From Parcubacteria group bacterium Gr01-1014_30 (GTDB lineage Bacteria > Patescibacteriota > Minisyncoccia > Minisyncoccales > 2-12-FULL-40-12), in assembly GCA_007376185.1 (NCBI GenBank), contig VMFS01000009.1:1-45127 (forward strand): DNA of 45,127 bases, given 5' to 3'. Below are positions 838 through 43,323 of this stretch, one piece after another (position 1 is the stretch's first letter; each line of letters opens with the position of its first letter). A program made the translations under genes and the position numbers. Under the pieces are notes generated by a model. It saw nothing but the letters and a program-made list of their open reading frames with translations, had not been told where the DNA came from and searched no databases.

Positions 838-1126
838 TCCCCGGTAGCTCAATGGTAGAGCGGCTCGCTGTGAAATAATTGCAGCTTTCCGCCGAAAGAC
901 GGATTGAAAAACTTTGGGATAACGGTGAAACCTGTAAAATGGCAACACCGTGGGAACCCCGCTCTCTAAGCTTGTGAGTCGATTCATTGGCACAGAGGGC
1001 GGGGGCGCCGTAGAGACTAGATACCAAAGCGCCCGGAAAGGGTGATGATATAGTCCACGCCATTACGAAAGTAGTGGATTAAGTGTAACGAGAAGGTTGT
1101 AGGTTCGAATCCTACCCGGGGAGCCA
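838..1126 (+). tRNA. tRNA-Asn(GUU) interrupted by a group I intron (exons 838-871 and 1086-1126, CCA encoded)
   Basis: Joined exons give TCCCCGGTAGCTCAATGGTAGAGCGGCTCGCTGT/TAACGAGAAGGTTGTAGGTTCGAATCCTACCCGGGGAGCCA: full cloverleaf, acceptor TCCCCGG/CCGGGGA, anticodon loop CTGTTAA. Confidence 0.9.
872..1085 (+). other. Group I self-splicing intron (214 nt) between anticodon positions 35 and 36 of tRNA-Asn
   Basis: P1 GCUGU (exon)/GCAGC (881-885) with U.G at the 5' splice site; R/P7 motif GTAGAGACTAGATAC; S motif GATATAGTCC; intron ends in G. Confidence 0.88.
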
Positions 1127-12204: not shown

Positions 12205-12313
12205 GAGCACCCCGCCCTCTAAGCTGTTGGATTTATTCCCGAAAGTAAATTTTCTGCTCGTGATAGGATTTACCCTGCGGATGATGTCAAATAGCATAGA
12301 GGGCGGGGTGCTC
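12205..12313. mobile_element. gene-less GIY-YIG-family palindromic element with 17-bp perfect terminal inverted repeats, reverse orientation
   Basis: GAGCACCCCGCCCTCTA (12205-12221) / TAGAGGGCGGGGTGCTC (12297-12313). Confidence 0.7.
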
Positions 12314-20604: not shown

Positions 20605-20878
20605 ACCGGGGTAGAGAAGTAGTATCTCACGAGTCCCATAAAATTTTGTGGCCTAGGATGATAACATCTTACGGAAAAATTCCCGAAATTGCTGGAAAAC
20701 CCCTTGGGGCAATCAGCAGCCAAGCCCCGACGTAACGTCGGGGAAGGTTCAGAGACTATAATGGGAACACCCTTTTCTTGGAAGAGATGAGGGAGATGGT
20801 ATAGTCCATTCTCTTTGGCAACAAAGAGTTAATAAAAAGAAGCTCGAGACCTTGGTGCAATTCCAAGCCCCGGTACCA
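20605..20878 (+). tRNA. unusual CAU-anticodon tRNA interrupted by a group I intron (exons 20605-20639 and 20840-20878, CCA encoded)
   Basis: ACCGGGGTAGAGAAGTAGTATCTCACGAGTCCCAT/AAGCTCGAGACCTTGGTGCAATTCCAAGCCCCGGTACCA; acceptor ACCGGGG/CCCCGGT; loop CCCATAA. Confidence 0.78.
20640..20839 (+). other. Group I self-splicing intron (200 nt) between positions 36 and 37 of the CAU tRNA
   Basis: P1 CCAU/GUGG with U.G at the splice site; GCAGCCAAGC; GGTTCAGAGACTATAATGGG; GGTATAGTCC; intron ends in G. Confidence 0.87.
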
Positions 20879-20891
20879 GTTAAAATTTAAT

Positions 20892-21584
20892 ATGAACACT
20901 GTTACTACCAAGAAACTCCTTTCTCAAGAACTAAGAAGAAGCGGTTGGAGTATTGGCGAGATTGCCAAAGAGCTAGATATGTTAAAGAGTGGCTCTATTA
21001 GCAAATGGTGTCGTGATATTGTTTTGACGCCAGAGCAAATTGAAAGATTGTCAGAAAGACAAACTTCAGGTAGCTATAAAGGTAGAATGGTTGCCGCGGA
21101 AAGGTTAAGGGCGGATAGATTGCGAGAAGTTAAGCTGACGAGAGAGGAAGGATTGAAAGACATTGGCAAGCTCAGCAAAAGGGACCTTTTTATAGGCGGA
21201 TTAGGGATGTACTGGAGTGAAGGCGAAACATATCCTGGAAGCGACAGATTGAGTTTTATAAATTCAGATCCTAAAATGATTTTGTTTATGTTTAAATGGT
21301 TTAAGGAGATTTGCGGAGTTTCAGATAATAAGTTTTCTCTTCAGGTCAAAATAAATGAAATCCATAAGAATAGGGCGGGCGAGATAGAAAGTTATTGGTC
21401 GAAACTTATAAACATTCCTTTGACCCAATTTACTAAAACGATTTTGATAAAAGCAAAATCTAAGAAAATTTACCCAAACCCAGACGAGTATTTCGGCACA
21501 TTAAGAATTACCGTTCGCCAAGGCACTAAACTTAGAAGGAAACTTAATGGTTGGCTTGAAGGTTTGGCGAATTTGCCGGGGTAG
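20892..21584 (+). CDS. HTH plus putative homing-endonuclease-like protein between two tRNA genes
   Basis: N-terminal HTH (WSIGEIAKELDMLKSGSISKWCRD), then IGGLGMYWSEGETYPGSDRLSFINSDPKMILFMFKWFKEICGV; stop codon lies in tRNA-Glu. Confidence 0.45.
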   Translation: MNTVTTKKLLSQELRRSGWSIGEIAKELDMLKSGSISKWCRDIVLTPEQIERLSERQTSGSYKGRMVAAERLRADRLREVKLTREEGLKDIGKLSKRDLFIGGLGMYWSEGETYPGSDRLSFINSDPKMILFMFKWFKEICGVSDNKFSLQVKINEIHKNRAGEIESYWSKLINIPLTQFTKTILIKAKSKKIYPNPDEYFGTLRITVRQGTKLRRKLNGWLEGLANLPG

Positions 21585-21612
21585 TTCAGCTGGCCAGAAC
21601 GCCGCACTTTCA

Positions 21613-21717
21613 CCCCGCACCAAAATTTCCGGCTGTGTAGCTCAGTGGTAGAGCAAACGTTTCATAAGCGTTGGGCCAGAGGTTCAATCCCTCTCACAGC
21701 CACAATTTGGTGCGGGG
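21613..21717 (+). mobile_element. palindrome-bounded insert carrying tRNA(CAU)
   Basis: CCCCGCACC (21613-21621) ... GGTGCGGGG (21709-21717), extended by AAAATT/AATTT. Confidence 0.65.
21631..21702 (+). tRNA. tRNA with CAU anticodon (Met or Ile2), nested inside the tRNA-Glu gene
   Basis: GGCTGTGTAGCTCAGTGGTAGAGCAAACGTTTCATAAGCGTTGGGCCAGAGGTTCAATCCCTCTCACAGCCA: canonical cloverleaf. Confidence 0.92.
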
Positions 21718-21755
21718 CAAGTAAGGCGGAAGTCGTGGGTTCAAGTCCCACCCTC

Positions 21756-22759
21756 GGCACCACTTTGAAAAATGCAAGTTTCAAAGTAGTGCAGTATTCT
21801 TGAATTAATCCGAACGCACTTTTCCGGAAAAATCTCCCCGCGAAAATTCGGAAAGGCGGCGGAGCCGCACCGCTCAAAACCGCAAAAGAACCCGTAGAAA
21901 AACATCGGCTCGAACCATATTTTAATTTTGGGGGAAGAAAAGATAATCAGAACATTCAAAACGCCATCCCTAATAACACGCAAAACTACTACGGTAATCT
22001 TGCGAACGAATGCAAAAGTAAACAGAGCGAAAGTTGTTGCATTGCTTCCGTCGAAGCAATGAAGGCAGGAAATTACACACTTGCCCCTCAAGAGGGTTGC
22101 CCTGCTGGTTATCAACCCAACATGATGAGATGTATTGATAGCTTCCGATGGTGCCAGCCAGTAGAAAAATCTACGAACAATGCGCAAACTCAAAGCGCCG
22201 CTCCTGCGCTTGACTTCTTTGCTGGTGGAAGTATTTTCGGAAGCTCGTTTGAAGTTAAAATTTCTGGTGCTCATATTACTTATCGAGAAACAACGCAAGG
22301 CGGCGCAAAAGAAGTAAATAAAATTGATCGTTCATTACTCCCAGTAGAATTAGATGACATTCGCAAAACCATTTCGGATGCCGGTCTTATAAATTTGCAA
22401 TCGCAAGATTTTACTAAGGAACTGCTTGTACCTGACCAAGCGACATATCGAATTACCGTATCACTTGATGGTAAAGAAAATAAAATCAACTGCGGTATTC
22501 CTCCGTCTGGTACAGAACCGACCACGAAGTGCCAGAAGCAAATTGATAAATTGAGGTTGAAACTTAATAGCATATTAGGTGTGAACATTTATTGATTTTA
22601 AGTATGCCGCCAAAGAAAAACTGGAAATTATCATCGGTGCGGCTCCGCCGCCTTTCCGGATTTTCGCGGGGGGATTTTTTCGGAAAAATGCGTTCGTACT
22701 AATTCAAGAATACTGCACTACTTTGAAACTTGCATTTTTCAAAGTGGTGCCGTATTCTG
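21756..22759 (+). mobile_element. gene cassette 1 bounded by ~124-nt imperfect inverted repeats (21756-21880 / 22636-22759), abutting the tRNA-Glu 3' end
   Basis: CGGCACCACTTTGAAAAATGCAAGTTTCAAAGTAGTGCAGTATTCTTGAATTAATCCGAACGCA matches the reverse complement of 22696-22759 with 2 mismatches; similarity continues ~60 nt inward. Confidence 0.75.
22059..22595 (+). CDS. hypothetical protein (cassette 1); frame open further upstream, start uncertain
   Basis: Upstream in-frame sequence reads ...GGRKDNQNIQNAIPNNTQNYYGNLANECKSKQSESCCIASVEAMKAG... Confidence 0.55.
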   Translation: MKAGNYTLAPQEGCPAGYQPNMMRCIDSFRWCQPVEKSTNNAQTQSAAPALDFFAGGSIFGSSFEVKISGAHITYRETTQGGAKEVNKIDRSLLPVELDDIRKTISDAGLINLQSQDFTKELLVPDQATYRITVSLDGKENKINCGIPPSGTEPTTKCQKQIDKLRLKLNSILGVNIY

Positions 22760-24179: not shown

Positions 24180-25172
24180 ATGATAATGTATAGACTTGCT
24201 GATTCGCCACGTATTAAAAATATCGAGAGGAGCTTTGAAGACTCCATCGCCACAATTTTATACAACTGGCATTGGAAAGCGAATTTAAAGCATAGTGAAA
24301 TAGGAGAGAGGTTAGACATACCACGCCCTACTATTAGTCGTTGGTTTAGGAAACTCGGCGTGCCATCGCAGGATAGTCATAAAATTACTAATAATAATTT
24401 GTTGAATGTCGGACCAAGATGTGGTCCGCGTGCACAACCTAGAGTAAAAAAAGTAAGACCAGTTTTGGTTAATCAAGACTTCTTTAAAAAGTGGACACCG
24501 GAAATGGCTTACGTGTTAGGATATTTTGCGGCCGATGGTTGTATGTCTGTTAACTCAAGAGGTGCTCATTTTATTGAGTTTACATCAACAGACAAAGAAC
24601 AGATTGAGAGAATCCGAGAGAAGATGCAGTCTTCTCATGTTATTGGTAGGTTTGTTTCAAAAAATCCGAGATGGAAAACAGGATACCGTCTTCAAATAGG
24701 AAGCAAAGAGATGTTTAACGATTTATTGAGATTGGGGTTGACTCCACGAAAAAGTTTGACTCTTGATTTGCCGGAAGTGCCGGAGCAATACTTTTCGCAT
24801 TTTGTTAGAGGTTATTTTGATGGTGACGGCAGTGTGGCTTTCATGAGGTATTTCAGAAATGATAGGAAAAAGTTGGTTTACGCGTTTCGTACGAGGTTTA
24901 TCTCGGGGAGTAAAATATTTTTAGAGAAGTTGTTGCAGAAGCTGCGATTTTTTGTGGGCACTAAAGGCGGTTCGCTTATAAAAAAACAGGATGGTTCTTT
25001 TGAGTTATCTTTTTCAATGAACGATAGTTGCAAAATATTCTTTTATCTTTATAATGAATGTATTGCAGGAAACTTGTTCTTAACGAGAAAGTATAATAGA
25101 TTTCAAGAGGCGCTGAAAATATTAAGGGGGGGCGTAGCTCAATTGGTTAGAGCGCAAGATTGTCGATCTTGA
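24180..25172 (+). CDS. LAGLIDADG homing endonuclease with N-terminal HTH; 3' end overlaps tRNA-Asp
   Basis: HSEIGERLDIPRPTISRWFRKLGVP; MAYVLGYFAADGCM and FVRGYFDGDGSVAF (two LAGLIDADG motifs); C-terminus GGVAQLVRAQDCRS encoded by the tRNA. Confidence 0.88.
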   Translation: MIMYRLADSPRIKNIERSFEDSIATILYNWHWKANLKHSEIGERLDIPRPTISRWFRKLGVPSQDSHKITNNNLLNVGPRCGPRAQPRVKKVRPVLVNQDFFKKWTPEMAYVLGYFAADGCMSVNSRGAHFIEFTSTDKEQIERIREKMQSSHVIGRFVSKNPRWKTGYRLQIGSKEMFNDLLRLGLTPRKSLTLDLPEVPEQYFSHFVRGYFDGDGSVAFMRYFRNDRKKLVYAFRTRFISGSKIFLEKLLQKLRFFVGTKGGSLIKKQDGSFELSFSMNDSCKIFFYLYNECIAGNLFLTRKYNRFQEALKILRGGVAQLVRAQDCRS

Positions 25173-25201
25173 GGCTGCGAGTTCAAGTCTCGTCGTCCCC
25201 G
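25128..25201 (+). tRNA. tRNA-Asp(GUC), CCA not encoded
   Basis: GGGGGCGTAGCTCAATTGGTTAGAGCGCAAGATTGTCGATCTTGAGGCTGCGAGTTCAAGTCTCGTCGTCCCCG. Confidence 0.95.
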
Positions 25202-43244: not shown

Positions 43245-43323
43245 ACCCCGCCCTTGAAGTTGACCGCGCCAAAACGCGTCTTATTATTTTTAATGTCAAC
43301 TTCAAGGGCGGGGTTTTTTTTTT
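43245..43323 (+). terminator. long-stem terminator-like hairpin upstream of prfB
   Basis: ACCCCGCCCTTGAAGTTGAC / GTCAACTTCAAGGGCGGGGT followed by T tract. Confidence 0.75.

Follow-up and report, generated by a model that had tools for sequence, protein, structure and literature searches.

Short GC-rich palindromes present at many sites are known as palindromic elements in Rickettsia. The mitochondrial repetitive hairpin-forming elements (PMC2800124) and the GC clusters of yeast (PMC4478555) are likewise short GC-rich palindromes found at many sites, rRNA included, and their mobility is unknown or borrowed. Mobile hairpin elements are not described there with complete tRNA cargo or with an isotype that matches the disrupted tRNA, whereas both are found in the locus reported here. 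Insertions and intervening sequences of CPR rRNA genes (PMC11270868) are under 200 bp and belong to neither group I nor group II; the 23S rRNA units without tRNA that we describe below would belong there. That survey is of rRNA only, and tRNA, palindromes and hairpins are absent from its main text.

Insertion in a tRNA gene with replacement of the lost tRNA function is also known from integrative elements whose attachment sites are tRNA genes (e.g., SSV1; PMC3293823). However, these elements encode an integrase and use site-specific recombination to rebuild the gene that they enter, whereas here a whole second tRNA sits in the loop of a unit of about 100 bp with no enzyme gene. No direct repeat of the att kind was found at the unit ends, and about 100 bp leaves no room for an integrase. 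Archaeal bulge–helix–bulge introns and split or permuted tRNAs (PMC3218864, PMC4090602) share with our locus the interruption of the anticodon loop and the junction helix; here, in contrast, EndA was not found, the loop is not restorable and what is inserted is another tRNA, of the same isotype. The tRNA-Sec nested in selB (PMC8124441) is likewise a tRNA gene within another gene, but its host gene is protein-coding, a single isotype is involved and there is no palindrome family, unlike the nested tRNAs here. No report of bacterial tRNA-in-tRNA genes was found in the open-access literature. Palindromic elements and tRNA genes as targets are already known; for the isotype-matched nested replacement, no precedent was found in that literature.

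The window, i.e., the whole stretch of DNA analysed, is 45,127 nt long and corresponds to contig C10 of the genome of Parcubacteria group bacterium Gr01-1014_30 (G000; 769 kb, 11 contigs, 97% complete). At 21575–21762 it contains one tRNA gene inside another, both on the forward strand. The inner gene, an intact tRNA(CAU) at 21631–21702/3, is called by ARAGORN and by Rfam (RF00005, 70.5 bits) and is part of the genome-wide tRNA list. It fills the loop of a 105-bp palindromic unit (21613–21717), whose flanking arms, CCCCGCACCAAA on the left (21613–21624) and TTTGGTGCGGGG on the right (21706–21717), pair perfectly over 12 bp. This unit interrupts the outer tRNA (21575–21758), recognized with a tRNA-halves script and RNA folding by its acceptor stem GCCGGGG/CCTCGGC, D arm and T arm; an encoded CCA extends it to 21762. 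ARAGORN and the Rfam tRNA model reported the inner gene alone and missed the outer one. The fold of the precursor reaches −80.1 kcal/mol (z = −4.7), with 0 of 200 shuffles equally stable. The arrangement of the original prediction, with one tRNA lying in a palindrome within another, is thus upheld by ARAGORN, Rfam, the halves script and the fold, and it was also right that the insert is not group I-like: the group I intron core (RF00028) is absent from the insert (21609–21721), which ruled out such an intron, and the model matches the window at 862–1077 and 20629–20828. A permuted tRNA, with the arms as acceptor ends, was ruled out by eye, there being no T arm beside the arm sequence.

Its outer gene had been predicted to be a tRNA-Glu(UUC). 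By homology, the gene is a tRNA-Met(CAU) of the elongator type, and the palindromic unit has taken the place of its anticodon. An uninterrupted gene from genome G047, which reads GCCGGGGTAGTTCAGCTGGTGAGAACGCCGCACTCATAAGGCGGAAGTCGTGAGTTCAAATCTCACCCCCGGTACCA (stretch CCGCACTCATAAGGCGG) with anticodon CAU, matches both outer halves. The 5′ part (21575–21608: acceptor strand, D arm, 5′ strand of the anticodon stem and positions 32–33) is identical to it at 32 of 34 bases (94% over 34 nt), and the 3′ part (21722–21762: anticodon loop end TAA, 3′ strand of the anticodon stem, T arm, acceptor and CCA) is 88% identical over 40 nt, with a compensated change in the T stem. Relative to the parent loop CTCATAA, positions 34–35 (CA) are replaced by TTCA-[arm...arm]-CAAG. 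The left boundary bases TTCA (21609–21612) were placed against this parent loop and against other copies, TTTCA[arm] being found also at L217 and L203, and the right boundary bases CAAG (21718–21721) lie 3′ of the arm in identical form at the same two loci. The UUC anticodon is thus an artefact: its TTC is created by the bases at the insert boundary (TTCA...CAAG).

Gene order gives the same answer. In G002, a similar intact Met gene lies within an fMet-Met-Asp cluster, and the window keeps that order. The initiator tRNA-Met (20605–20878, forward strand; sequence and a blastn match of the fMet half), split by a group I intron (RF00028 at 20629–20828, 85.5 bits), is followed by the nested Met and by tRNA-Asp(GUC) (25128–25201, forward strand; tRNA calls), the third member of the cluster known from relatives. 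The tRNA-Glu(UUC) reading, dropped once the intact CAU homologue was found, is refuted by this homologue and by the G002 cluster. Other features of this neighborhood are a 230-aa ORF (20892–21584) between fMet and the nested Met, with its stop codon inside the 5′ half of the outer tRNA, no Pfam match and, in PHROGs, weak matches to transcriptional regulators only, and a LAGLIDADG endonuclease ORF (24180–25172) that overlaps the 5′ part of tRNA-Asp (25128). Elsewhere in the window (838–1122), a tRNA-Asn recognized by its body and loop has a group I intron in the anticodon loop (Rfam, 51.7 bits), similar to the intron of a tRNA-Phe on another contig (C2:50526–50812).

The genome-wide tRNA list, made of 40 Rfam hits plus the three genes carrying group I introns (fMet, Asn and Phe), contains no elongator Met gene other than the inner one, in an assembly that is 97% complete. 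The Ile tRNAs of the genome have anticodons GAU and UAU and, because these read Ile, the inner CAU gene is not needed for that amino acid. It forms a normal cloverleaf, and its CCA is not encoded, as in the other cargo tRNAs. Since no other elongator Met gene was found, we take the inner gene to be the working one, and the outer gene would be a relic. The original prediction had offered a dead outer gene as its alternative, and we judge this to be a better reading than splicing. Two observations count on the other side: the outer tRNA of the window shows no visible decay (acceptor stem fully paired, T arm intact, CCA present), which argues against a relic, and the sister genome G001 has a free-standing Met gene of the inner type (96%), so that either of the two Met alleles could be the one native to this lineage, which counts against the explanation that we favor below.

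The arrangement is not confined to the window. Counting the locus described above (N1, Met), the genome has four nested loci, and for none of the inner genes was a second gene with the same anticodon found, fMet excepted. A whole-genome scan for interrupted tRNAs located a Gly body enclosing tRNA-Gly(CCC) (N2, C7:69475–69633) and a Glu body enclosing tRNA-Glu(CUC) (N3, C1:12723–12884). The arm pattern located tRNA-Pro(UGG) inside a body recognized by eye as Pro, an isotype that the automatic test ranked third (N4, C2:4406–4508). For three of the loci in this genome, RNA folds were far stabler than those of shuffled sequences.

Most of the genomes compared are metagenome assemblies. A pattern of palindrome, T-loop motif and palindrome was found in 17 of the 247 genomes of the order, at 22 places, and its reversed control at none; inspection placed all 22 within remnants of tRNA genes. 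In a sample of 380 genomes from the phylum, 9 matched. The arms-only pattern (CCCCGCMC...GKGCGGGG, about 100 bp) is present in 44 of the same 247 genomes of the order, against 1 for the reversed pattern. A GTDB scan, rich in chance matches from GC-rich genomes and from which we retained just the loci whose matched arms enclose a tRNA, added cases from Portnoybacteria, Kerfeldbacteria, Doudnabacteria, Wolfebacteria and Uhrbacteria among the matches listed; the same listed matches include an Elusimicrobia assembly (L171), outside that radiation, and two loci (L203 and L217) in assemblies named just "bacterium". In total, 43 distinct candidate loci were collected, part of them from the listed GTDB matches, and a few of them, such as L236 and L276, are probably spurious matches. 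Even among members of one genus the occurrence is sporadic, G004 and G110 (genus of G049) having no such arrangement. At one locus (L127 in G031, 1430–1750) nesting is triple, Leu in Leu in Leu, and the outermost and innermost genes look identical outside the lost anticodon arm. Absence from related genomes, which the original prediction had named as the mark of a one-off insertion, is the opposite of this outcome of wide recurrence with matched isotypes.

The match between inner and outer genes extends to both strand and isotype. Taking as the signature of an outer tRNA the acceptor pairing across the unit plus the D and T arms, with a cut-off at the 95% point of deliberately mismatched flanks, 19 of the 43 loci exceed it when read on the strand of the inner tRNA, against 0 of 43 on the antisense strand. 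Outer pieces, partly set by hand, were compared with 232 tRNAs from which the inner tRNA of the locus itself was excluded, and the outer isotype equaled the inner one in 24 of 30 testable loci and was within the top two in 27; 5000 shuffles of the labels gave a mean of 3.8 matches and a maximum of 11. Where an outer anticodon can still be read, as in units of the T loop and D loop, it is the same as the inner one (CCU, CCG, UCU or CAU) at L118, L139, L130, L128, L142, L281 and L083. The sole exception is L267, with CCA vs. CCG, a difference of one base and as would be expected for a decaying gene.

The place taken by the unit depends on its arms. A unit with CCCCGCCC arms typically takes the place of the entire anticodon arm (positions 27–43), leaving an outer 5′ piece of 25–28 nt and a 3′ piece of about 28–31 nt. 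Those with CCCCGCAC arms are found in the anticodon loop as TTTCA[unit]CAAG (N1, L217 and L203), in the T loop as T-stem-CCYG[unit]TGA-RANY with loss of TTC (L083, L118, L130, L139 and L142) and in the D loop (L128 and L278). Some outer genes are visibly damaged, which supports their being relics, as does the altered anticodon of L267: L126 has lost its 3′ half, L134 and L268 have further hairpins in the T loop, and L136, L265 and L271 have extra hairpins.

Units with the same arms also exist without any tRNA. The genome has 29 units with these arms, of 26–306 bp, and 25 of them have no tRNA; they are dispersed copies with terminal inverted repeats, as in mobile palindromic elements. Two, of roughly 100 bp each, lie within the 23S rRNA gene (L063; C9:59828–59928 and C9:60404–60502), and short empty hairpins with the same arms occur as well. 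A second palindrome-ended unit of the window, found by the arm pattern, is 99 bp long with outer arm bases CCCCGCCC/GGGCGGGG and no tRNA (12210–12308, no strand assigned); it is placed between a gene of the MurA/EPSP-synthase family and mreB, where it interrupts the loop of a small hairpin with GAGCA/TGCTC at its mouth. In G096, a palindrome-ended unit (L121, 1501–1598) overlaps the 5′ side of a weak match to RNase P RNA (33.6 bits, E = 9e-9). The window also has a 68-bp palindrome, CCCCGCCCTTGAAG..., at 43246–43313, with an identical copy at C9:94671–94738 of the same genome.

One comparison bears on movement. A Met unit with like arms and 96% identical cargo occupies the Met anticodon loop in our genome and the T loop of a different Met gene in G029, which belongs to another family. 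Arms and spacers can likewise be common to units of one cargo, with 94% identity between L139 and L267. From these similarities, we infer that tRNA-carrying units may be mobile. No target-site duplication is evident at the tRNA copies, where loop bases are lost instead. Three long units of the genome without tRNA, of 200–306 bp (C11:76455–76760, C11:105596–105795 and C6:142693–142992) have TTGA on both flanks, possibly as target duplications. No transposase could be linked to the arms, and an origin of the RAYT/REP kind was rejected: the genome has a single Y1 transposase gene, around which CCCCGC arms are absent. A phage origin was also rejected, with no useful phage match and, among 37 viral contigs that fit the pattern, 0 with a tRNA-holding palindrome.

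We consider it likely that a family of palindrome-ended elements disrupts tRNA genes and yet supplies a replacement tRNA of the same kind. Units of the family, with arms CCCCGC[A/C]C.../...G[G/T]GCGGGG and about 100 bp in length, would occupy hairpin loops of RNA genes as well as other sites. A unit that carries a tRNA would land in a tRNA gene and destroy its anticodon, T or D loop, and would at the same time supply a complete tRNA of the isotype and strand of the broken gene. The inner tRNA would be co-transcribed with the outer gene, released by ordinary RNase P and 3′-end processing and then receive its CCA by addition, the outer tRNA being left as a relic. Such a compensated insertion would have a low cost, and the unit could no longer be lost after the death of the resident gene. 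It is reasonable to hypothesize that the inner gene functions, that the outer gene is dead and that selective lock-in is the source of the matched isotypes. The matching itself could come from selection alone, other insertions dying or decaying, or from a targeting step through tRNA similarity. Selection alone may not explain it, because the location of all 22 sites of the order in tRNA remnants, with isotypes matched wherever testable, exceeds what simple random insertion would give.

Alternatively, the nesting could arise in place, through a recombination or template-switching event in which the loop of a hairpin receives a copy of a tRNA of like type, with no mobile tRNA-carrying unit involved. 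We hold this to be unlikely: it would fit the nearly constant isotype match, the innermost and outermost Leu genes of L127, which look identical outside the lost arm, and the empty short hairpins, but not the fact that two families have the same arms, with Met cargo 96% identical, in different loops, nor the conservation of arms and spacers between units of the same cargo, such as L139 and L267. It is also conceivable that the outer tRNA has a function as a scaffold or as a shell for processing, the composite tRNA-on-tRNA molecule retaining an outer fold that protects or presents the inner tRNA, or that the outer acceptor end has a role of its own. The precise replacement of the anticodon arm by CCCCGCCC-class units, the perfect acceptor and T stems kept by several outer genes and the stability of the folds of three loci of this genome speak for such a role. 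However, the arrangement is sporadic and missing from close relatives such as G004 and G110, several outer genes are decayed or have gained further hairpins, and units placed in the D loop or the T loop disrupt the outer fold, so that a scaffold seems to us quite improbable.

Compared with the relic outer gene of the reading that we favor, splicing of the outer tRNA has very little in its favor. The insert would be a new type of tRNA intron, removed in a bulge–helix–bulge-like manner, with the halves joined by an enzyme such as RtcB. The bulge–helix–bulge of the original prediction can indeed be drawn at N1, but the shape is not conserved in the family. The search for ligase and endonuclease genes that it had suggested gave a divided result: RtcB is encoded, which proves nothing because this ligase is widespread, and an EndA-type endonuclease (PF01974) was not matched at E ≤ 1 in the genome, although archaeal controls did match. 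Removal of the unit at N1 would not yield the parental CUCAUAA loop. At other copies, the TTC of the T loop or the whole anticodon arm (27–43) is gone, and joining could not rebuild a normal tRNA; the outer anticodon of L267 is mutated, and a joined product would in any case duplicate the inner isoacceptor. With no EndA found and loops that are not restorable, the split-tRNA idea did not hold up. Least credible of all is an assembly artefact or chance palindrome. Metagenome assemblies and a pattern search that yields chance matches in GC-rich genomes would be a setting for such errors; against this stand the absence of the reversed pattern from the 247 genomes, the matched isotypes and the occurrence of four loci in one 97% complete genome, as well as in independent assemblies.

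A further step can be proposed, more tentatively and with some doubt on our part: the tRNA-carrying palindromes could constitute, in Patescibacteria and some other bacteria, a minimal selfish element that moves horizontally, invades and kills genes for the isoacceptor of its cargo and becomes indispensable through the replacement tRNA, repeatedly enough to produce Russian-doll tRNAs.

Genes for tRNAs are among the most conserved and essential, and yet in several families of tiny-genome bacteria they are found nested in broken copies of their own kind. If our explanation is true, it would represent a new way in which a DNA element can turn both harmless and impossible to remove, by bringing the gene that it breaks. 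It would also affect tRNA annotation and account for odd tRNA remnants in Patescibacteria, and it would offer a case, open to testing, in which the replacement of essential tRNA genes is enforced, possibly across families.
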